39,164 nucleotides of DNA from a virus, in the IMG/VR virus record IMGVR_UViG_3300038701_000855, positions 1 through 39,164 of that record; one strand, given 5' to 3'. A program made the translations under genes and the position numbers. Each line of letters opens with the position of its first letter. Positions within the stretch are counted from its first letter, which is position 1. Shown here piece by piece: positions 3,139 to 34,707 of the stretch. The notes under the pieces are model-generated. The model saw only the letters and a list, made by a program, of their open reading frames with translations. It made no database searches and was not told where the DNA came from.

Positions 3139-4813
3139 TGTTCTTTCTCGCTATCGCTTCATTTATACGTTGTAAAAGTTCACTTCCAGCTCTCGGCTCG
3201 GTTGGTGTTTCCTGCTCTATAGGCTGCTCCATAACTGGTGGCAACTCCTCTTTCTCTACAACATCAGACTTATCAATCATGTTTTGCACCATATTTCTAT
3301 CAAATAACAATTGCTCTTTTAAGCCTTTGTCAGTCGTTTCTAGTATCGCTTTTTCCGAAACTTTCAATAAGTTACCTAACACGCTTTTTGCTTGTGGTGA
3401 TATTGCAAACTTACCTGCGCCATACAAACCAACTGTAGGAATAATAGTATACGGGCTTATTATACCCGCAGCACCCAATCCACCCAATGCAGCCAAACCT
3501 AATATTTCAGTCTTTAAAGGAATAGCTTTTGATACATTATTAGCTAGTCTGGCAATCGCATTGCTTCCTTCATCAGCTGCTTTGCCCGCAATATTATCCA
3601 TTGCAGATAGTAAATTATGCTGCCTATTTAATGATTTTTTAATCGCAACGTTTTTAACATTTTTATCAAGATAGTCATGTGTTGTATTGCGTATCTCTCG
3701 CACAGCCGTAGAAAATGCGCTTTCACTCTTAGCATCAAACACTTTTGGCTTAAAGTCCTTTGCTAGAGCATCAAATTCTTTTCGTGCCTTTAATAATCCA
3801 GCAGGGGTGCTTGGGTGCTTTGCAACTATTTTATTATATTCTCCCGCCAATTTAGCAGCCATCTTCTCCGCATCACCAACCAAGAAAGGATTATCTTTTA
3901 ATCTCTTTGACATATTAGATAACTCTTGTTGAAAATCGCTCGGGTCAAAAGTCTGTCCTAACTTTTCCAACGACTCCTCTAGCCCTTTCGATTGCTTACC
4001 CACAGCATCTTTAATAACGTTGTAATTCCCTTGTAAGGTGTTCTTTTTTGTTATCCCTTGCAGTTTATTAACCTCTTGGGCTATTTTTAATTCACGTGGA
4101 GAGGGGGTAACATCAGCACGCTTTAGTAAACCTTTTTCTATTGTGCGCCCCACCTGCTCTTTTCGCACAGCAGCGGTTTGTTTAGGTGCTATCAAATCTT
4201 TGACGAAATCCGCCTTTCTTGTGGCTTTTTGGTTTAAACTACTTTGCAATAACTTTTCCCCACTTTTGCCTATCGGGGTTTTGCCAGATGCTTTTGCTAA
4301 GTTTCCAGTTCCAAACGTGAATATATTTGTAAGTGATTTTATGTTTTGCGCCATATTCGGGTCACTTTTCTCTAATTCATTTAGAGCATTAGCACCTTGT
4401 GAATATTTCTCTGCAACGAATTCACCTGCGGGAGTGTCTGCAACCGCTCCAACTACTGTAGATAAAACCTCCTTCACACTATCTGGCGTATACTCTCCTA
4501 TAACCTCACCTAAAGCATCAAAGCCACCACCAATAGTTATACCTATTCCTTGCATAGCTAATTCTGGTAAAGAAGTTTCTCCAGTTCCAATTCTTTGGAT
4601 GGCTTGCAAATACTCCTGCCCTCGACCTTGCATATCTTCACTTATACGACTTGACAGCTCTGGTTGTGCGTCTACACCTTGCAGCGGTTGTTCTTGCGCT
4701 ACACCCATAACAAAACCTTCTGGCATTGGCGGAACTACGCTATTATCAATAGGTAAATCACCTAATACAAACCCCGCTGGTAGTGGTGGTAGATTTTTTA
4801 TATCGGTTGCCAT
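3125..4813 (-). CDS. Internal virion/ejection-type protein, 562 aa
   Basis: Large Ala/Lys-rich, mostly helical protein. The N-terminus is Pro-rich (PPLPAGFVLGDLP, then PPMPEGFVMG: a short internal repeat). Residues about 90-135 and 415-460 contain glycine/alanine hydrophobic stretches (ILGLAALGGLGAAGIIS) that could enter a membrane. Between them lies a long Lys-rich helical region. Its place after the tail genes and before the fibres, beside two other helical proteins, matches the ejected internal proteins of podoviruses (inference by context; no family recognised). It overlaps the upstream gene by 16 nt. Confidence 0.65.
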   Translation of the reverse strand: MATDIKNLPPLPAGFVLGDLPIDNSVVPPMPEGFVMGVAQEQPLQGVDAQPELSSRISEDMQGRGQEYLQAIQRIGTGETSLPELAMQGIGITIGGGFDALGEVIGEYTPDSVKEVLSTVVGAVADTPAGEFVAEKYSQGANALNELEKSDPNMAQNIKSLTNIFTFGTGNLAKASGKTPIGKSGEKLLQSSLNQKATRKADFVKDLIAPKQTAAVRKEQVGRTIEKGLLKRADVTPSPRELKIAQEVNKLQGITKKNTLQGNYNVIKDAVGKQSKGLEESLEKLGQTFDPSDFQQELSNMSKRLKDNPFLVGDAEKMAAKLAGEYNKIVAKHPSTPAGLLKARKEFDALAKDFKPKVFDAKSESAFSTAVREIRNTTHDYLDKNVKNVAIKKSLNRQHNLLSAMDNIAGKAADEGSNAIARLANNVSKAIPLKTEILGLAALGGLGAAGIISPYTIIPTVGLYGAGKFAISPQAKSVLGNLLKVSEKAILETTDKGLKEQLLFDRNMVQNMIDKSDVVEKEELPPVMEQPIEQETPTEPRAGSELLQRINEAIARKNSAKQ

Positions 4814-5820
4814 GCGCCATTCCTTAATATTAATTTTTCACCTGTTGTTGGGTTGGTTATAACCACGCCATCATTTGGTGCTGCTTCCGCTTCCACTAAA
4901 TTCAAATCCAAAGCCACATCCTCTGGTGATAAACCACTTTTCTCTGCAAGTTTTGTGTATTGCCTCACACGTTTATCTTGTTGATTCTGCGCTTTACTAA
5001 ATAACTTATTCGCTCTATCTACAAAGTCCTTACGCATCCCATCAGACAATCTCTGCCCTTCCAAAACCTTATTAACTTGAGCTTGTATCCTTTCACCATA
5101 TGCACCAGTTCTAGCTGCTTGTGCAAATTCGCTTTCTCGAACAACTGACGCTGGGTCTAATATCTTCATATAGTTAAAGATTAAGGCTAAATCACCCGCT
5201 GCACTTGGGTTTTCAGCAGAAGCTGCCACACGTCCAAATGCGTCACGCTGCTTAATAAACTCACCAGATAAGCCTGTAAACTCTTTTCTCAATTTTTGCG
5301 TGGTATCAAATACATCTTTCGGGTCTAAGCCACCACCTTTTAACTTTTGGTTAAACTCTTTTACTGTTTGGTTGAATTTATCTTGCTCCAACTTGAACTG
5401 CTCACCCTCACGCTCTCGCTTTACTGTTCTAGCCTGCCTTTCTTGCTCCGCTTGCTCTGGTGTTATAAACCCTGCCACTTCATCAGCTTTTAATTTAGCT
5501 AAGTCCGTCATAGGCGTTGCTGCCTCTTGCATCAAAGGTGATTGTTTAGCAATAATATTTAACGCTTCCTTATTGCCCTGCCCTGCTAAATTAGCTAATT
5601 GTGCTAGTTGAGCTTGTTTTATTTCTTCTGCACTAGATGGCTCTGCACCACCTGCACGAGCAAATTGTGGGATTGTTTGTCCTGCAAGGATATTAGCTAA
5701 CTGTGCTTGTTGGTCTAATTGCTTTTGCTCGTTGATTCGACGCATCTCTGAGGCACCTATCGACGTTAACGCTTCAAATCCCCTGCCTAATCCACCTACT
5801 AATTTTTGAATATCAACCAT
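4798..5820 (-). CDS. Helical internal virion protein, 340 aa
   Basis: Start chosen at ATG 5820 (MVDIQKLVGG), which follows an AGGGGG Shine-Dalgarno and lies 1 nt after the stop of the upstream gene. Longer readings into that gene have no ribosome site. The protein is Gln/Ala/Lys-rich and strongly helical, with a charged coiled-coil stretch around residues 110-160 (EQERQARTVKREREGEQ). Together with its two neighbours it forms a three-gene set that looks like podoviral DNA-ejection proteins. The function is inferred from position only. Confidence 0.6.
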   Translation of the reverse strand: MVDIQKLVGGLGRGFEALTSIGASEMRRINEQKQLDQQAQLANILAGQTIPQFARAGGAEPSSAEEIKQAQLAQLANLAGQGNKEALNIIAKQSPLMQEAATPMTDLAKLKADEVAGFITPEQAEQERQARTVKREREGEQFKLEQDKFNQTVKEFNQKLKGGGLDPKDVFDTTQKLRKEFTGLSGEFIKQRDAFGRVAASAENPSAAGDLALIFNYMKILDPASVVRESEFAQAARTGAYGERIQAQVNKVLEGQRLSDGMRKDFVDRANKLFSKAQNQQDKRVRQYTKLAEKSGLSPEDVALDLNLVEAEAAPNDGVVITNPTTGEKLILRNGAWQPI

Positions 5821-13614: not shown

Positions 13615-15678
13615 TTAAACAGTAAATGAAATCTGATTTGTATTAGCATTAAGAAGTTGGTCATTCTCTATATCCAACTTTTGCGCCTCTTCAATTGTCT
13701 TAGTTGTGTCCGCTCTTGTCTTATCAGAATCAACAGCCAATTTAGCAATTTCGCTTTGTATCTTTTGAACTTCCGCTTGCTTCTTAATCAAGTCTTGTTG
13801 CAATGATTCAAGGTTTAACGCTTCAACTTGTTGCGCTAACTCTGCTTGTCTTAGTTGTTGCGCTTGTTGCTCGGGCGTTAATTGCGGGTCAAGCTGCTGT
13901 CTTACACGCTCTTTTGTTGTTTCTTTTATCGGCATATCATCAATCAATGCTGGATAAATGTTTTGCCCTGTCATCAATAAGTTTTGCGCTATTCCCAACA
14001 TAAGTGTTAAATTCTCTCGCTTCTGTACTGGAGTTGTTGGCACTTCTTGCACATCAACATCATATTCAGCAAATAAAGCGTTATCATTCACCGCTTCCAT
14101 TGCAGCAACGCCATTCTCACCAATAACACGAACCAACACACTAGGATTATTCTCAAAGATAACTCGCATATACGTCAACATTAAACGTGCAGATTCTTTT
14201 TGATATAACGTAATGCTATCAAAGTATGTAGCAAGCGTGGAAACAACCTGTTCTATTCTTTGCGCCTCTAATAATGCAGACACTTGTTTATTTTCTGAAC
14301 TTCCTAAAAACTCTGGGTTAACACCAGTAACTTCAAACATACCCGCTTTTGCAGCAGCTAAAACATTCTCATAACCACTTGGCAACGCACTTTGCGCTTT
14401 TGGTTGTATCTTGCCACCAGACAATGCGCCATCATTAACACGGATAGCAGCATCAGTTGAAGCCCATTGTTGCTCAAACCTCTTAGGGTCATTAACAGCG
14501 TTAATCTCATACATAACACCACCTTTAGAATTGTTGGCAATTGTGTATAATATCTCTGTTAATGCTTTATTTGCATAGCGTGACGGCTCTCTTAACTGGT
14601 CAACCATTCCATGCCACACACCTCTTGTTTCATCATAGTCGCCAGTCTTAAACTTGATTGTGAAGCCGTTTTGGTCTTTAGATTTAAACGATTGAAATAC
14701 TTTCTTACCAGATATAATAGCCGTATAATAAACTTGACGCTTATGCTTTACTTCCTCTGCTTCAATTCCGTATTCATCAAACAACGCATGTAACAAATTT
14801 CTTGTCTTAGTCGTCACAACTAGTTCTTCTGATGCAGGGTCAAATGAAAACAAATCTTCTAAAACATCATCGTCCTCATTTTCCATATCTATTTCATCAC
14901 GCAACAATTCAAATGCTTCTGCTATCTCTTGCCTAACAAGCGGGTCTATATCTTCATATAATGGATTCTCAATGCGATAATATGTTTCATACTCCCACCA
15001 TTGATAATAGAATACTTGAACCAAATCTTCATCAACTTCGTTTTCGGCGTACAATCTATCTCTTGTGCTTGTTGTAGACAACGGACTTTCAACAGCCTCA
15101 AAATCTTCTTCTTCTGCACTAAACAAATCAGCGGCATCTTCACGATTCATAACTTTACGGCGATAAACCCAACGGCTATCAAGTAAATTAGCAGCTCTAG
15201 CCTGCGGGTCATAACCAAACTCGTCAAACTTCAAAGAACACGCAGCAACTTCACCAAATGGATTTTTAATATAAGACACACTCTGGTCAACCGCCCCAAT
15301 ACCCGTGATAAGCATCTCTTTATCTTGGCGTGATTCCACTTGCTCAACATTTGCATTTGCTCGTATGTAATCTGAAAATGAATTAGTGCTAGTTGAATAT
15401 TCTTTTTGTAATTGTGCTTCTGGGATTCTAGCTTGATAGTCGGGCTTTCTTCTTAGCTTAATCATAAAGCCTGTAATAGAGTTTATAAAAGGCTTAATGC
15501 GATTAAACACAACAATCTTTCTTTGTTTACCTGCTGATACCCCAACACTATAAGCCATCTCATCACCGCTATAAAACTGGTGGTTAAGCTCTCCTATTTG
15601 ATATTGCAAGTCAAGCCCCGCTTCCGAAATGCTATGATGCTCTTTAAACTGCTTTAATAGGTCTGATTTATTTAACAT
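13615..15678 (-). CDS. Portal protein (P22-like)
   Basis: 687 residues from ATG 15678, which shares its A with the terminase stop (TAATG); an upstream TTG inside the terminase gene is less likely. The N-terminal region YSVGVSAGKQRKIVVFNRIKPFINSITG with VDQSVSYIKNPFGE is P22-type portal. The C-terminal 100 residues form a long Gln-rich coiled coil (QQAQQLRQAELAQQVEALNL), the barrel-like end. It forms the dodecameric ring for DNA entry and tail joining. TAATG coupling to terL suggests matched translation. Confidence 0.83.
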   Translation of the reverse strand: MLNKSDLLKQFKEHHSISEAGLDLQYQIGELNHQFYSGDEMAYSVGVSAGKQRKIVVFNRIKPFINSITGFMIKLRRKPDYQARIPEAQLQKEYSTSTNSFSDYIRANANVEQVESRQDKEMLITGIGAVDQSVSYIKNPFGEVAACSLKFDEFGYDPQARAANLLDSRWVYRRKVMNREDAADLFSAEEEDFEAVESPLSTTSTRDRLYAENEVDEDLVQVFYYQWWEYETYYRIENPLYEDIDPLVRQEIAEAFELLRDEIDMENEDDDVLEDLFSFDPASEELVVTTKTRNLLHALFDEYGIEAEEVKHKRQVYYTAIISGKKVFQSFKSKDQNGFTIKFKTGDYDETRGVWHGMVDQLREPSRYANKALTEILYTIANNSKGGVMYEINAVNDPKRFEQQWASTDAAIRVNDGALSGGKIQPKAQSALPSGYENVLAAAKAGMFEVTGVNPEFLGSSENKQVSALLEAQRIEQVVSTLATYFDSITLYQKESARLMLTYMRVIFENNPSVLVRVIGENGVAAMEAVNDNALFAEYDVDVQEVPTTPVQKRENLTLMLGIAQNLLMTGQNIYPALIDDMPIKETTKERVRQQLDPQLTPEQQAQQLRQAELAQQVEALNLESLQQDLIKKQAEVQKIQSEIAKLAVDSDKTRADTTKTIEEAQKLDIENDQLLNANTNQISFTV

Positions 15679-18113
15679 TACCAACTCATAAAATCATCAT
15701 TTGAATAGCTACTTTGTTTCGCTACTGTTTCACCGCCCGCTAAATACTCCACTTGCTCTTGTGGAAAATACGCCTCAACATCATAAATACGCGTCCACGC
15801 ATCAATCATGTCGTCATTTTTACCAACAGGGAAAAGCATCAATTCATCTTCTATAAATTCACTTGACAAATCATGCACTTCACCTTTGTAGTTATTATAT
15901 AGGATTTTATCAGCAATGTAAACACGGCTATTATCCCAATCAGGGATGGCTCTTCTTATCCTATCCTCTTTGCTTAATCTACCTTTTAACTCCTCTAATC
16001 CAAAGCGATAGTTAATTGCCTCTTGCGCTTTCTGTATGTAATACTTATCCGTCATCATTCCGTATTGCTCAACTCCAACTCTCGGAGGCTTACCGCCTTT
16101 GAAATTCCACTTCTTATGCAGCTTAATAAGCGCATTAACTCTTTCAGTAGGGTTTAGCTTGTCACGCACTAAATCAAGAATATAATAGTTTTGGTCTGGT
16201 GCTAGCCCCACAACAACCATTGCCGTGTAGTCTGCGTTCTCTTTCTTTGTGTTTGCTGGGTCGTAGAATATCCATATATTCATTTCTCGGCAACTAAAGC
16301 TCTCATGGTTTGGATTAAAGAATTGTATTCTATCCTTGCTAAACTCACCATTGCCAACTGGTGCAGGCTCTTGCATGTACTGTCCGTAGAAAACATATTT
16401 CTCTTTAGAACTTCCCTCGTCACGCTGCTTAACTAAGTCCTTAAAGTTTTCTTTGTACTCCCAATAAGATTTATCTTCGCCTGTTTCTTCATCCTTAATA
16501 ATGGCAGGGATTTTAATATGCTTTACTGGCAAGTTTAATCCACCATTACGAATAAAGCCCGTTGGGTCATTCTCATGCAGTCTTTGCATAATCAAGAGAA
16601 TAGGAGTTGCAGGGTTCGCTTTACGTGATTTAATCGTATTAACTAGAATGTCGTTTATTCTATTTCTATCTGCTGTTGACTCTGCCATTTCTGGGCTAAG
16701 GGGGTCATCGATAATTATACAATTATGTGCGAGTATTCCGTCAACAAAGAAGTTATTGTTTCCCTCAACTTGTATGTCATAGACTTTTGTCGGCTCTCTA
16801 CTAACAACTTCATATCTGGAAATTTGTGTCGCTTTGATTTGTGTATTCTTACATGACAACTCGAACACATTGTTGCAAGATTGCTCGGACTGTTGTTGTG
16901 TTTGTTCTCGTCTATATGATGCACAACCAAACGAACCTCGCTCTCGCACGCTAAACACTGCCCATCCCTTAATTTTATTAAAGGCTTCAACTTCTGAAAT
17001 AGCACTCGATAATCTTTGTGTATATTCTTGTAATTTGAATTGCCCTCTCCTCGCATATTCCTTGAGTGCGCTAAGTCTGCGCATGAGCGGGAACAATGCT
17101 GCGTTAAATAACTTATTGGCATAAACCCACTCGAACAAATAGGACAGCTTTTTTCTGATAAAGTTTTTAATCTTCCCGATTCTTTTGCATCCAAGTTGCT
17201 GCACTCCCTTGAACAGAATATTATCGTCTGATTTCTCTCTATTGATTTCCTCACATCGCTGCGGGCTCTTTTCTTTACCTTTGAACACCTCTTGCATTGA
17301 ATCCAAATGCTTCCCTTGAAGCTGTTGAAGCTTTCCATAGATTGAGGATATTTCTTCGTAGGATTCTCCATTGAAGAACCTGTGGCAAGGCGTGCAGGTG
17401 ATTTCTTTATCACCTGCGGTGAATCTAATAATCTCATGCTTGATACTCTCTTGAACAGCCACAACCCTTTTAGGCTCGACTGTATTAGTTAGATGATTAT
17501 AAGATAATACTATATCACCTTTTTTAATTTCATCAATAACTTTCGTACCCTTAACCATGTTGACTTTTGAGCCTGCTACAAAACAACCTTGCCAGCCATC
17601 ATTCATATGCCCTGCACGAAAGCCAGTCACCTGCCCACGCATTGACGTTGCATATACACCGCCTGCATTCCTTTCCGTGCCATCCTCGTCAAATATAACA
17701 TTCCAACGCTTCTTTGATTTACTATCAGGTCTTATTTTAAGATTCCACAACTCTTGATACTCGTCACTTTCAACAATATCTTTCGCACCTAACGAGTTTT
17801 GTTCAGCTAACTGGTCTGAATATGATAAATGCAAGAACCTGCAACGTGGATTAATAGCAAGTGAACGAGCAATCCAATTAACTACTGCCATTTGAGTTTT
17901 AGAGCTTCCAGGCGAAACGTTAATAATAACAACATGCCCGTCATACACTCCCCGCTCAATCTCAAGCAATGTATCTGCAATAAGGCGGTGATGCCAGTTT
18001 GTTATAAACTTCATCCCTTCACGATGCTTAAAGAAATAACGAGTAAAAAACAACGGGTCTTCTTCACACGCTGCTTTTATTATCTGCCGTCTAATTTCTT
18101 CTTTTGTTGTCAT
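15678..18113 (-). CDS. terL: Terminase large subunit with in-frame intein
   Basis: 811-residue precursor. N-extein residues 1-176 contain the Walker A motif NVSPGSSKT (about 65-73). Residues 177-464 are an intein. The C-extein begins CIIIDDP (465-471), the Walker B motif, and ends with the nuclease region (YDPANTKK near 600 and KNDDMIDAW near 775). The spliced product would be 523 residues, normal for TerL. It cuts and pumps DNA into the head with the small subunit and portal. ATG 18113 overlaps the upstream stop (ATGA). The ATPase site is split by the intein, so activity must depend on splicing (inference). Confidence 0.9.
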   Translation of the reverse strand: MTTKEEIRRQIIKAACEEDPLFFTRYFFKHREGMKFITNWHHRLIADTLLEIERGVYDGHVVIINVSPGSSKTQMAVVNWIARSLAINPRCRFLHLSYSDQLAEQNSLGAKDIVESDEYQELWNLKIRPDSKSKKRWNVIFDEDGTERNAGGVYATSMRGQVTGFRAGHMNDGWQGCFVAGSKVNMVKGTKVIDEIKKGDIVLSYNHLTNTVEPKRVVAVQESIKHEIIRFTAGDKEITCTPCHRFFNGESYEEISSIYGKLQQLQGKHLDSMQEVFKGKEKSPQRCEEINREKSDDNILFKGVQQLGCKRIGKIKNFIRKKLSYLFEWVYANKLFNAALFPLMRRLSALKEYARRGQFKLQEYTQRLSSAISEVEAFNKIKGWAVFSVRERGSFGCASYRREQTQQQSEQSCNNVFELSCKNTQIKATQISRYEVVSREPTKVYDIQVEGNNNFFVDGILAHNCIIIDDPLSPEMAESTADRNRINDILVNTIKSRKANPATPILLIMQRLHENDPTGFIRNGGLNLPVKHIKIPAIIKDEETGEDKSYWEYKENFKDLVKQRDEGSSKEKYVFYGQYMQEPAPVGNGEFSKDRIQFFNPNHESFSCREMNIWIFYDPANTKKENADYTAMVVVGLAPDQNYYILDLVRDKLNPTERVNALIKLHKKWNFKGGKPPRVGVEQYGMMTDKYYIQKAQEAINYRFGLEELKGRLSKEDRIRRAIPDWDNSRVYIADKILYNNYKGEVHDLSSEFIEDELMLFPVGKNDDMIDAWTRIYDVEAYFPQEQVEYLAGGETVAKQSSYSNDDFMSW
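16715..17371 (-). CDS. HNH endonuclease nested out of frame inside the terL intein
   Basis: Reads the same strand as terL but one base downstream in frame. From ATG 17371 it has 218 residues; ATG 17437 (AAGAGAG upstream) is an alternative start. It has zinc-ribbon pairs (CKRCSK with FCSRECS; CPICSSGF with HCSRSC) and a C-terminal HNH module: LRDGQCLACE, VVHHIDENKHNNSPSNLATMC, SSCHVRIHKS. This is a complete, well-formed HNH homing-type enzyme, not a random shadow. Its TAA lies 5 nt past the intein's last Asn codon, so its last 30 codons overlap intein blocks F and G. Likely role: cutting intein-less terL alleles so the element spreads (inference). Confidence 0.8.
   Translation of the reverse strand: MENPTKKYPQSMESFNSFKGSIWIQCKRCSKVKKRARSDVRKSIERNQTIIFCSRECSNLDAKESGRLKTLSEKSCPICSSGFMPISYLTQHCSRSCADLAHSRNMRGEGNSNYKNIHKDYRVLFQKLKPLIKLRDGQCLACESEVRLVVHHIDENKHNNSPSNLATMCSSCHVRIHKSKRHKFPDMKLLVESRQKSMTYKLRETITSLLTEYSHIIV
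16722..17585 (-). mobile_element. Intein (Hint domain) in TerL, 288 aa
   Basis: Block A: Cys1 in CFVAGSKV (codon 17585-17583) with two further strands (GTKVIDEIKKGDIVLSYN). Block B: DKEITCTPCHRFF with the TxxH motif. Block F: VYDIQVEGNNNFFVDG. Block G: ILAHN ending in His-Asn, followed by Cys+1. All splicing residues are present, so it should be active. Between blocks B and F the terL frame has about 170 residues with no LAGLIDADG or HNH motif; that DNA instead encodes an HNH enzyme in the +1 frame. The insertion point is the conserved Walker B site, a known preferred terminase intein site. Confidence 0.9.
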
Positions 18114-33588: not shown

Positions 33589-33975
33589 ATGAATATTAAT
33601 GATTTAACAATTGGTGAAGCTAGAGAGTTGGCAAATTTATTTGGAAGCACTAGTAAACAAGAGTCTAGCTTGTATAGCCGATATATTGGCAAGTATGTAA
33701 TAGCTAGAACTCGTAATGAAGGTATTAATGCGGGTAAAGTATTAGCATTAGATGAAACAGGTGTGATTTTAGAAGATGCAAGACGTTTGTATTATCATAA
33801 ACCTGCTGATAAAAGCCTTAGTTGGTATGAAGGTGTGGCTATAGATGGATTATCATCTGATTCTAAAGTTGGTGCACCAGTAGAGAAAATATTAGCAGAA
33901 GATTATTCTTTAACTATATGCACTGATAAAGCCGAACAATCTATAAGAGGAGCGCAAACAAATGAGCAAAGTTAG
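33589..33975 (+). CDS. DUF6948-like phage protein, 128 aa
   Basis: LTIGEARELANLFGS, RYIGKYVIARTRNEGINAGKV, ILEDARRLYYHKPADKSLSWYEG and LTICTDKAEQSIRGA are the conserved blocks of the DUF6948 family, common in proteobacterial phages. Function unknown. It is followed, with a 14-nt overlap, by the Gly-Tyr repeat gene, a pairing I recall from other phages. Confidence 0.7.
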   Translation: MNINDLTIGEARELANLFGSTSKQESSLYSRYIGKYVIARTRNEGINAGKVLALDETGVILEDARRLYYHKPADKSLSWYEGVAIDGLSSDSKVGAPVEKILAEDYSLTICTDKAEQSIRGAQTNEQS

Positions 33976-34294
33976 AGATTTAGTTTTTAATAAAGGCTAT
34001 GGCGATGGCTATGGCTATGGCTCTGGCTATGGCTATGGCTCTGGCTATGGCTATGGCGATGGCTATGGCTATGGCTCTGGCTATGGCTATGGCTATGGCT
34101 ATGGCTATGGCTATGGCGATGGCTCTGGCTCTGGCTATGGCTCTGGCTATGGCGATGGCTCTGGCGATGGCTCTGGCTATGGCGATGGCTCTGGCTATGG
34201 CGATGGCTCTGGCGATGGCTCTGGCTATGGCTCTGGCTCTGGCTATGGCTATGGCGCTGGCTATGGCTATGGCTCTGGCTATGGCTATGGCTAG
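33962..34294 (+). CDS. Gly-X repeat protein (Gly-Tyr/Ser/Asp), 110 aa
   Basis: After MSKVRDLVFNK the whole protein is Gly-X, with X being Tyr, Ser, Asp or once Ala, for 99 codons. It has no signal peptide or membrane segment. The Tyr/Ser/Gly content resembles disordered proteins that form condensates or adhesive coats (inference). RBS GAGGAG at 33948-33953. Function unknown. Confidence 0.72.
   Translation: MSKVRDLVFNKGYGDGYGYGSGYGYGSGYGYGDGYGYGSGYGYGYGYGYGYGDGSGSGYGSGYGDGSGDGSGYGDGSGYGDGSGDGSGYGSGSGYGYGAGYGYGSGYGYG
33995..34291 (+). repeat. Degenerate hexanucleotide array
   Basis: About 49 units of GGC followed by TAT, TCT, GAT or GCT, i.e. GGCKMT: only positions 4 and 5 vary, and all four combinations occur. 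Gly is always GGC and the X codon always ends in T. Tandem structure makes it prone to length change. Confidence 0.9.
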
Positions 34295-34585: not shown

Positions 34586-34707
34586 GGGGGTGCGGTGCTG
34601 AAAGTAGAAGCATAGATGCATTGTGCAGCATTGGCGAGGCTACATGACTTAGAAAAATGCACGAGATAGTTAAACCCTACAGCAGGATTAACGCCCTGCC
34701 ACCCCCG
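34586..34707 (+). ncRNA. Candidate structured RNA with tRNA-like arm layout
   Basis: A 7-bp closing stem GGGGGTG (34586-34592) / CACCCCC (34700-34706), directly stacked on a 5-bp 3' hairpin GCAGG/CCTGC with an 8-nt loop (682-699). On the 5' side, 2 nt then GTGC/GCAT (4 bp, 11-nt loop), 1 nt, then GATGC/GCATT (5 bp, 8-nt loop): the arm sizes of a tRNA, but with 49 nt in the variable region, no TTC loop and no CCA. An alternative fold pairs CGGTGCTG (593-600) with CAGCATTG (626-633). It could be a riboswitch-like leader of the next gene or a free RNA. Confidence 0.5.

Follow-up and report, generated by a model that had tools for sequence, protein, structure and literature searches.

The described RNAs that come closest to the element treated here are transfer RNA (tRNA, RF00005), the tRNA-like domain of transfer-messenger RNA (tmRNA), RNAs C and D of phage T4, the bacterial Y RNAs (YrlA), the put RNAs of phage HK022 and the large phage-associated RNAs GOLLD and ROOL. 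The Y RNAs combine an end-closing stem with a tRNA-like module, are stable non-coding RNAs and occur in some phages, the put RNAs consist of two adjacent stem-loops in leaders, and GOLLD and ROOL are several hundred nucleotides (nt) long. The element in question lies in a stretch of 39,164 nt of viral DNA (IMG/VR record IMGVR_UViG_3300038701_000855; this whole stretch is called the window), where a structured block of 121 nt at positions 34586-34706 is closed by a stem of 7 base pairs (bp), GGGGGTG/CACCCCC. From 5' to 3' it is composed of the closing stem P1, a CG linker, the hairpin P2, a 68-nt insert and the hairpin P4, which abuts P1. In RNA letters, the loop of P2 (L2) is GAAAGUAGA and P4 is GCAGG AUUAACGC CCUGC. 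From the comparison with its relatives we lean slightly towards the view that this block represents an undescribed class of phage RNA that acts in trans during infection, with a tertiary-folded core in which P1 would be stacked on P4 and P2 docked by a contact of L2 with the P4 loop (L4), so that the core would be a platform for exchangeable modules.

With tRNA the family shares the closing stem, the 2-nt linker, a D-like hairpin, a flush T-like hairpin and a contact between the loops of these two hairpins. It differs in the loops themselves, GAAAGYAGA and NNUARCGN, which are not D- and T-loops (TTCRANY), in an insert that replaces both anticodon arm and variable loop, in a stem of 5-25 bp, and in the lack of CCA and of a tRNA match. 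The tRNA-like domain of tmRNA also has a tRNA-like core with a long insert instead of a normal anticodon arm, but no tmRNA is called in the window, and the real or candidate tmRNAs of contigs L102, L123 and L128 stand away from the RNA. RNAs C and D of phage T4 are of similar size (119-139 nt) and lie beside tRNA genes, as several family members lie in phage tRNA clusters; the T4 region (L156), however, gave no match to the family model at E <= 1 and contains no GAAAGYAGA hairpin. The put RNA is likewise a structured phage RNA within early operons, whereas many family members are situated outside leaders, and HK022 (NC_002166) did not match the family model up to E = 5. The end-closing stem and tRNA-like module recall YrlA, and GOLLD and ROOL are also structured non-coding RNAs of phages and prophages, the latter two being of different size; unlike all three, the family members gave nothing that overlaps the RNA in Rfam 15, at gathering or permissive thresholds. 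The window itself contains no tRNA or tmRNA according to ARAGORN (0 genes) and no Rfam 15 family at the gathering threshold (0 matches), and the permissive threshold returned only two weak chance matches (E 0.7-0.9, far below gathering). As the core sequences were also not found in the open-access literature searched, the family is previously uncatalogued and new at the RNA-family level, while its biochemical role may yet prove to be a familiar one.

At least 169 distinct relatives were obtained from pattern scans of IMG/VR, of GTDB genomes and of cultured phages; the final set has 169 members, and all counts of 169 refer to members among the matches listed. The scans used short conserved patterns only, by which divergent members are missed. 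An exact IMG/VR scan with the 3' hairpin GCAGGATTAACGCCCTGC gave 15 contigs, where one or two were estimated by chance, and nearly all of the 15 share the anatomy of the window block, namely a closing stem that is unrelated in sequence, followed by CG, the hairpin with the loop GAAAGTAGA, a variable insert and the flush 3' hairpin. A scan with a degenerate 5' hairpin gave 59 contigs, and GTDB genomes added members from Bradyrhizobium, Pseudomonas delhiensis, Methylobacter and several metagenome-assembled genomes. BLAST with the core identified cultured phages of Synechococcus (Ssp-JY40, Yong-M3-232), Sulfitobacter (pCB2047-A, pCB2047-C, NYA-2014a), Ochrobactrum (POI1126) and Pseudomonas (PotUPM1, Persinger, vB_PaeS-D14H and the Ori group), and the family is thus widespread among many unrelated phages, the hosts of which include cyanobacteria, Rhodobacterales, rhizobia and pseudomonads, besides others. 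BLAST of the whole window RNA against phages and plasmids found nothing, because sequence conservation is limited to the short loops. The covariance model scores the window at 70.2 bits (E 4.5e-13), the window itself being among the 37 training sequences, and members outside the training set reach 55-65 bits (Synechococcus, Ochrobactrum and Bradyrhizobium prophage copies); with this model, two copies each were found in contigs L118 and L205. The family search gave no match in E. coli genomes and none that was convincing in plasmids, and the model search of 25 Pseudomonas genomes gave none at E <= 1e-4, a cut-off at which a known positive was also missed; the sensitivity of this search is too low for an estimate of host prevalence.

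Throughout the family, P1 comprises 5-25 bp, mostly 7-9, and is free in sequence save for a conserved inner G-C pair. P2 has 5 bp and the loop GAAAGYAGA, P4 has 5 bp and the loop NNUARCGN, the first and last bases of which are often A-C or G-U, and the three helices are joined by a CG linker and an A, both near-invariant. RNAalifold, applied unaided to 37 members with short inserts, returned exactly P1, P2 and P4. When P1, P2, P4 and the L2-L4 pairing are considered together in these members, 98.4% of cells are paired and 15 of the 20 pairs show double-sided change; since members were partly collected by a helix requirement, the pairing percentages of P1, P2 and P4 are inflated, but not the L2-L4 result. 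The covariation score of 0.668 compares with 0.194 +/- 0.014 in shuffles and with at most 0.13 when the partners are slid. In a less biased count, a flush P1 of at least 6 bp together with a perfect 5-bp/8-nt P4 was present in 163 of 197 matches to the P2 pattern, against 1.0 of 197 with shuffled downstream sequence. Among the pairs, 2801 are Watson-Crick, 52 G-U and 3 A-C, and from this excess of G-U over A-C it follows that the transcribed strand corresponds to the + strand of the window. Compensatory changes in relatives, which had been set beforehand as the test of the structure, are abundant. Conservation of the 34657 frame at the amino-acid level does not explain the block, as this frame is blocked in the nearest relative, L001, by an in-frame TAA a short way 5' of the ATG. 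By its covariation, then, the family is almost certainly real and structural.

A contact between the two loops was suspected from Ssp-JY40, in which L2 is GAAAGCAGA instead of GAAAGUAGA and L4 is AGUAGCGC instead of AGUAACGC, a double change that suggests pairing of L2 position 6 with L4 position 5. A test scan of viral DNA for the C variant of L2, with L4 unconstrained, gave at least 120 contigs; members were then gathered by helix pairing with the L4 sequence left free, and the final 169 were trimmed with a loose L4 filter. In these, the L2/L4 bases are C/G in 108 members, U/A in 51, U/G in 2, C/C in 1 and C/A in 0. The adjacent L2 G and L4 C are nearly invariant, and a second pair is possible there. 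Both states occur within each of three insert-defined subfamilies, and the switch must therefore have occurred more than once. It could be shown in this way, at the level of sequence comparison, that L2 and L4 touch via at least one Watson-Crick-covarying pair beside a near-invariant G-C. An earlier candidate, pairing of GUUAA in the insert with L4, was dropped, since L4 pairs with L2 in the family.

The same comparison shows the middle insert to be an exchangeable part of the predicted fold: it is free to vary between most members, some groups form subfamilies with conserved inserts of their own, and occasionally tRNA T-arm or whole-tRNA-like parts are carried. T-arm-like sequences are present in 8 inserts, where 0.1 would be expected, and ARAGORN calls a tRNA-Ala within the insert of L127. 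No common helix was found at the place of the anticodon arm across inserts of 44-207 nt, and a conserved P3 was rejected, as pairing with the 3' end of inserts is little above that of shuffles. The insert at L103:5458-5630 resembles a permuted tRNA by eye, with a T-arm, an acceptor 3' strand and CCA followed by an acceptor 5' strand and a D-arm; a permuted tRNA was not confirmed when ARAGORN was run on the doubled insert.

In the window, the block lies in a gap of 146 nt with 48% G+C, which exceeds all other gaps (20-31% G+C) of the 27-36 kb operon in both length and G+C content; the operon is otherwise tight and AT-rich. The initial annotation, which took the block for a tRNA-like RNA, had noted this enrichment correctly, and it had also placed the 7-bp closing stem and the flush 5-bp/8-nt 3' hairpin at the right coordinates (Table 1). 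Its D-like arm is real, but in relatives consists of 5 bp with a 9-nt loop and not of 4 bp with 11 nt. The 5-bp/8-nt "anticodon arm" did not survive: its pair probability is about 0.01, it is thermodynamically disfavoured and it is not conserved in relatives. The absence of a T-loop motif and of CCA holds, L4 being NNUARCGN and the P1 3' strand of the window being followed by GATAAT. The exact tRNA geometry occurs at one site on the + strand of the window and at none on the - strand. None of 3000 local shuffles reproduced it, and when P1 was kept fixed and the interior shuffled it arose twice in 200,000 trials. The minimum free energy (MFE) z-score of the block is -1.8, which is weak evidence taken alone.

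Table 1. Parts of the RNA and flanking open reading frames (ORFs) in the window
Feature	Positions	Strand	Evidence or remark
P1, 5' strand, GGGGGTG	34586-34592	+	7 bp with 34700-34706; double-sided changes in 7 of 8 P1 pairs in 37 relatives
Linker J1/2, CG	34593-34594	+	CG in 168 of 169 members
P2 hairpin, GTGCT-GAAAGTAGA-AGCAT	34595-34613	+	L2 is GAAAGYAGA in nearly all members
L2 bases G, U	34604-34605	+	Predicted partners are L4 bases A, C (34691-34692); L2/L4 base counts
Variable insert, 68 nt	34614-34681	+	Family range 44-207 nt; final A in 159 of 169 members
Possible P3, 5' strand, TTGTGCA	34621-34627	+	Partner TGCACGA at 34658-34664; pair probability about 0.5; window sequence only, without covariation support
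P4 hairpin, GCAGG-ATTAACGC-CCTGC, flush with P1	34682-34699	+	Exact 18-mer in 15 IMG/VR contigs; stem covaries
L4 bases A, C	34691-34692	+	Partners of L2 bases 34604-34605
P1, 3' strand, CACCCCC	34700-34706	+	Pairs with 34586-34592; covariation
Upstream ORF, 65 aa	34382-34579	+	No Pfam match; stops 6 nt 5' of P1
Downstream ORF, 50 aa	34726-34878	+	AAGGAT Shine-Dalgarno; relative L001 lacks this ORF

The genomic context was evaluated for 80 clean intergenic cases after codon-usage-based gene calling. Genes in sense orientation flank the RNA on both sides in 51 of them, 12 have a sense gene upstream and a convergent gene downstream, 9 are antisense to both neighbours and 8 lie between divergent starts; the downstream gene has the opposite orientation in 21 of the 80. 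No recurrent neighbour family was found: on each side of the RNA, at most 2 of 62 genes have a PHROG in common, and for the downstream genes Pfam gave the same picture. In cultured phages the RNA is situated between terminase and portal, just upstream of terminase genes, in immunity regions or before recombination genes, and in Persinger it follows directly after the integrase and is itself followed at once by a terminator. Some contigs have it within tRNA clusters, and several temperate-phage copies stand at the start of early operons. Intrinsic terminators 3' of the RNA (14 of 169) are near background and not clearly enriched. The suggestion of a riboswitch-like leader is not borne out by these contexts, which lack a recurrent downstream gene and include members that lie at the end of an operon or run antisense to adjacent genes, while a new phage RNA, also considered at the outset, is strongly supported by the 169 relatives, the covariation and the lack of an Rfam 15 match.

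The core may function as follows. P1 would stack on P4 as an acceptor stem does on a T stem, and P2 would fold back onto P4 via L2-L4, resulting in a compact, L-shaped core similar to a tRNA elbow. The RNA would be transcribed as part of phage operons, as phage tRNAs are. As a stable RNA acting in trans, it could serve as scaffold or decoy for an elbow-reading protein of host or phage, with the insert as putative specificity module. We are evenly divided on the proposal that such a trans-acting RNA would be excised from operon transcripts, with a core that provides a platform for recognition or stability and an insert that is a module. The changing location and neighbours together with the sense bias, as in phage tRNA genes, favour a trans-acting RNA, and the absence of a recurrent neighbour, the varied sites, the double copies in L118 and L205 and the sites in tRNA clusters are counted for a trans-acting or stand-alone role. 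Besides the inflated pairing percentages, some points weigh against this proposal. The L2-L4 contact is antiparallel Watson-Crick pairing and not the G18-Psi55/G19-C56 interaction of the tRNA elbow, which makes the analogy structural only. The sense bias (51 cases with both neighbours in sense against 9 with both antisense) is also compatible with an element that acts in cis within phage mRNA. Finally, the closest relative of the locus, L001, lacks the RNA except for a P1-like hairpin, and the RNA must therefore be dispensable at least there.

A cis-acting element of the operon mRNA, be it an RNA-only antiterminator like HK022 put, a translation leader or an element for the processing or stability of the mRNA, is a serious if rather unlikely candidate. 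It would account for the usual position within operons, for the several temperate-phage copies at operon starts and for the window itself, where P1 ends 19 nt ahead of a start codon. Convergent downstream genes (12 of 80) and genes antisense on both sides (9 of 80) are difficult to reconcile with it, as are the Persinger copy with its terminator directly behind, the missing recurrent downstream gene and the lack of an HK022 match to the family model. Known small ribozymes have a similar amount of near-invariant unpaired nucleotides as this family, in which about 17 of them meet at a single junction and a single loop-loop contact. The active site of a small ribozyme, or the binding site of a ligand-binding aptamer, could accordingly be made up of the conserved elements of junction and loops (CG, GAAAGYAGA, A, UARCG), but we think this distinctly improbable: there is no conserved position beside P1 that would mark a cleavage site, the members match no Rfam ribozyme or riboswitch even at the lax threshold, and the gene context is inconsistent, unlike that of a riboswitch.

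It is very unlikely that the RNA is a tRNA or tmRNA that has degenerated and gained a larger variable region. Its arm spacing is that of tRNA and 8 inserts contain T-arm sequences, but ARAGORN and Rfam recognize neither tRNA nor tmRNA in the window, the loops are not of D- or T-type, the length of P1 ranges over 5-25 bp, an anticodon arm is not conserved, and the family's own conservation shows selection as something else. Of the initial tRNA mimic there remain the tRNA-like spacing of P1, P2 and P4 and the contact of the P2 and P4 loops; a conserved anticodon arm, CCA and a tRNA or tmRNA match do not. A chance fold or a mobile hairpin is hardly credible. The modest MFE z-score would agree with it, as would L001, where flanks and P1-like arms are kept and the interior is swapped for about 30 nt, but a chance fold is refuted by the compensatory changes and the loop-loop pair in 169 relatives, and neither target-site duplications nor identical copies in one genome were seen that would indicate a mobile unit. 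Phage RNAs that are widespread and strongly conserved in structure but have no known function are rare, and they usually prove important for infection. The fold of this family is precise and testable, with a loop-loop contact backed by compensatory changes, and its presence in cultured phages of Pseudomonas, Sulfitobacter, Ochrobactrum and Synechococcus makes it experimentally accessible. The family may also explain intergenic gaps of phage genomes for which present annotations give either nothing or a spurious ORF. One hypothetical protein annotated in Pseudomonas phage Orimi01 (L282:2493-2966) overlaps with the RNA core; probably its start was mis-called or the ORF itself is spurious.

The nearest contig, L001, is about 80-93% similar to the window in the neighbouring genes and retains the flanks GAATCCCGTTAAGGGCTAGGGGG and CCACCCCCGATAAT, with a plain hairpin as interior. 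At L001:3552-3593 only this P1-like hairpin is present where the window has the full RNA, apparently by natural loss or replacement; loss of the RNA in that phage seems the better reading than a variable hairpin. Relatives with DUF6948 were considered as carriers of the RNA, but only L001/L008 shares the locus, and without the RNA interior, while relatives by the major capsid gene are fragments with the locus outside their span. The flank 18-mer CCCGTTAAGGGCTAGGGG was rejected as a marker of relatives, since its matches in jumbo phages look like unrelated bidirectional terminators; the jumbo-phage contigs L003-L007 have in common the hairpin CCCCTAGCCC-GTTAA-GGGCTAGGGG, a likely bidirectional terminator. 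Upstream of DUF6948, a more distant phage carries a GGGGGTG...CACCCCC hairpin (L009:5925-5967) with the stem sequence of the window P1, a different interior and no L2/L4 motif. A G+C-rich, structured-looking intergenic block just upstream of the DUF6948 gene in L012 (343-485) matches neither the new covariance model nor Rfam.

Elsewhere in the window, an 811-aa ORF at 15678-18113 (-) contains an intein splicing domain (Pfam PF14890) and is, by position and sequence, likely the large terminase. A DUF6948 gene followed by a protein that consists almost wholly of GYG/GSG/GDG repeats is located at 33589-34294, a pair that recurs in related phages, and a GYG-type repeat is also found near another family member, L191. 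Downstream of a GYG-repeat gene in L010 there is an intergenic block of roughly 600-700 nt (4504-5220), which folds very strongly (-209 kcal/mol) and has no match in Rfam. With its 12-bp stem, CG, CATA and GCTAG-AGTAACGC-CTAGC hairpin, the block resembles P1 and P4 of the family; it scores 17 bits with the family model and is possibly a large phage RNA that shares the P1/P4 module.
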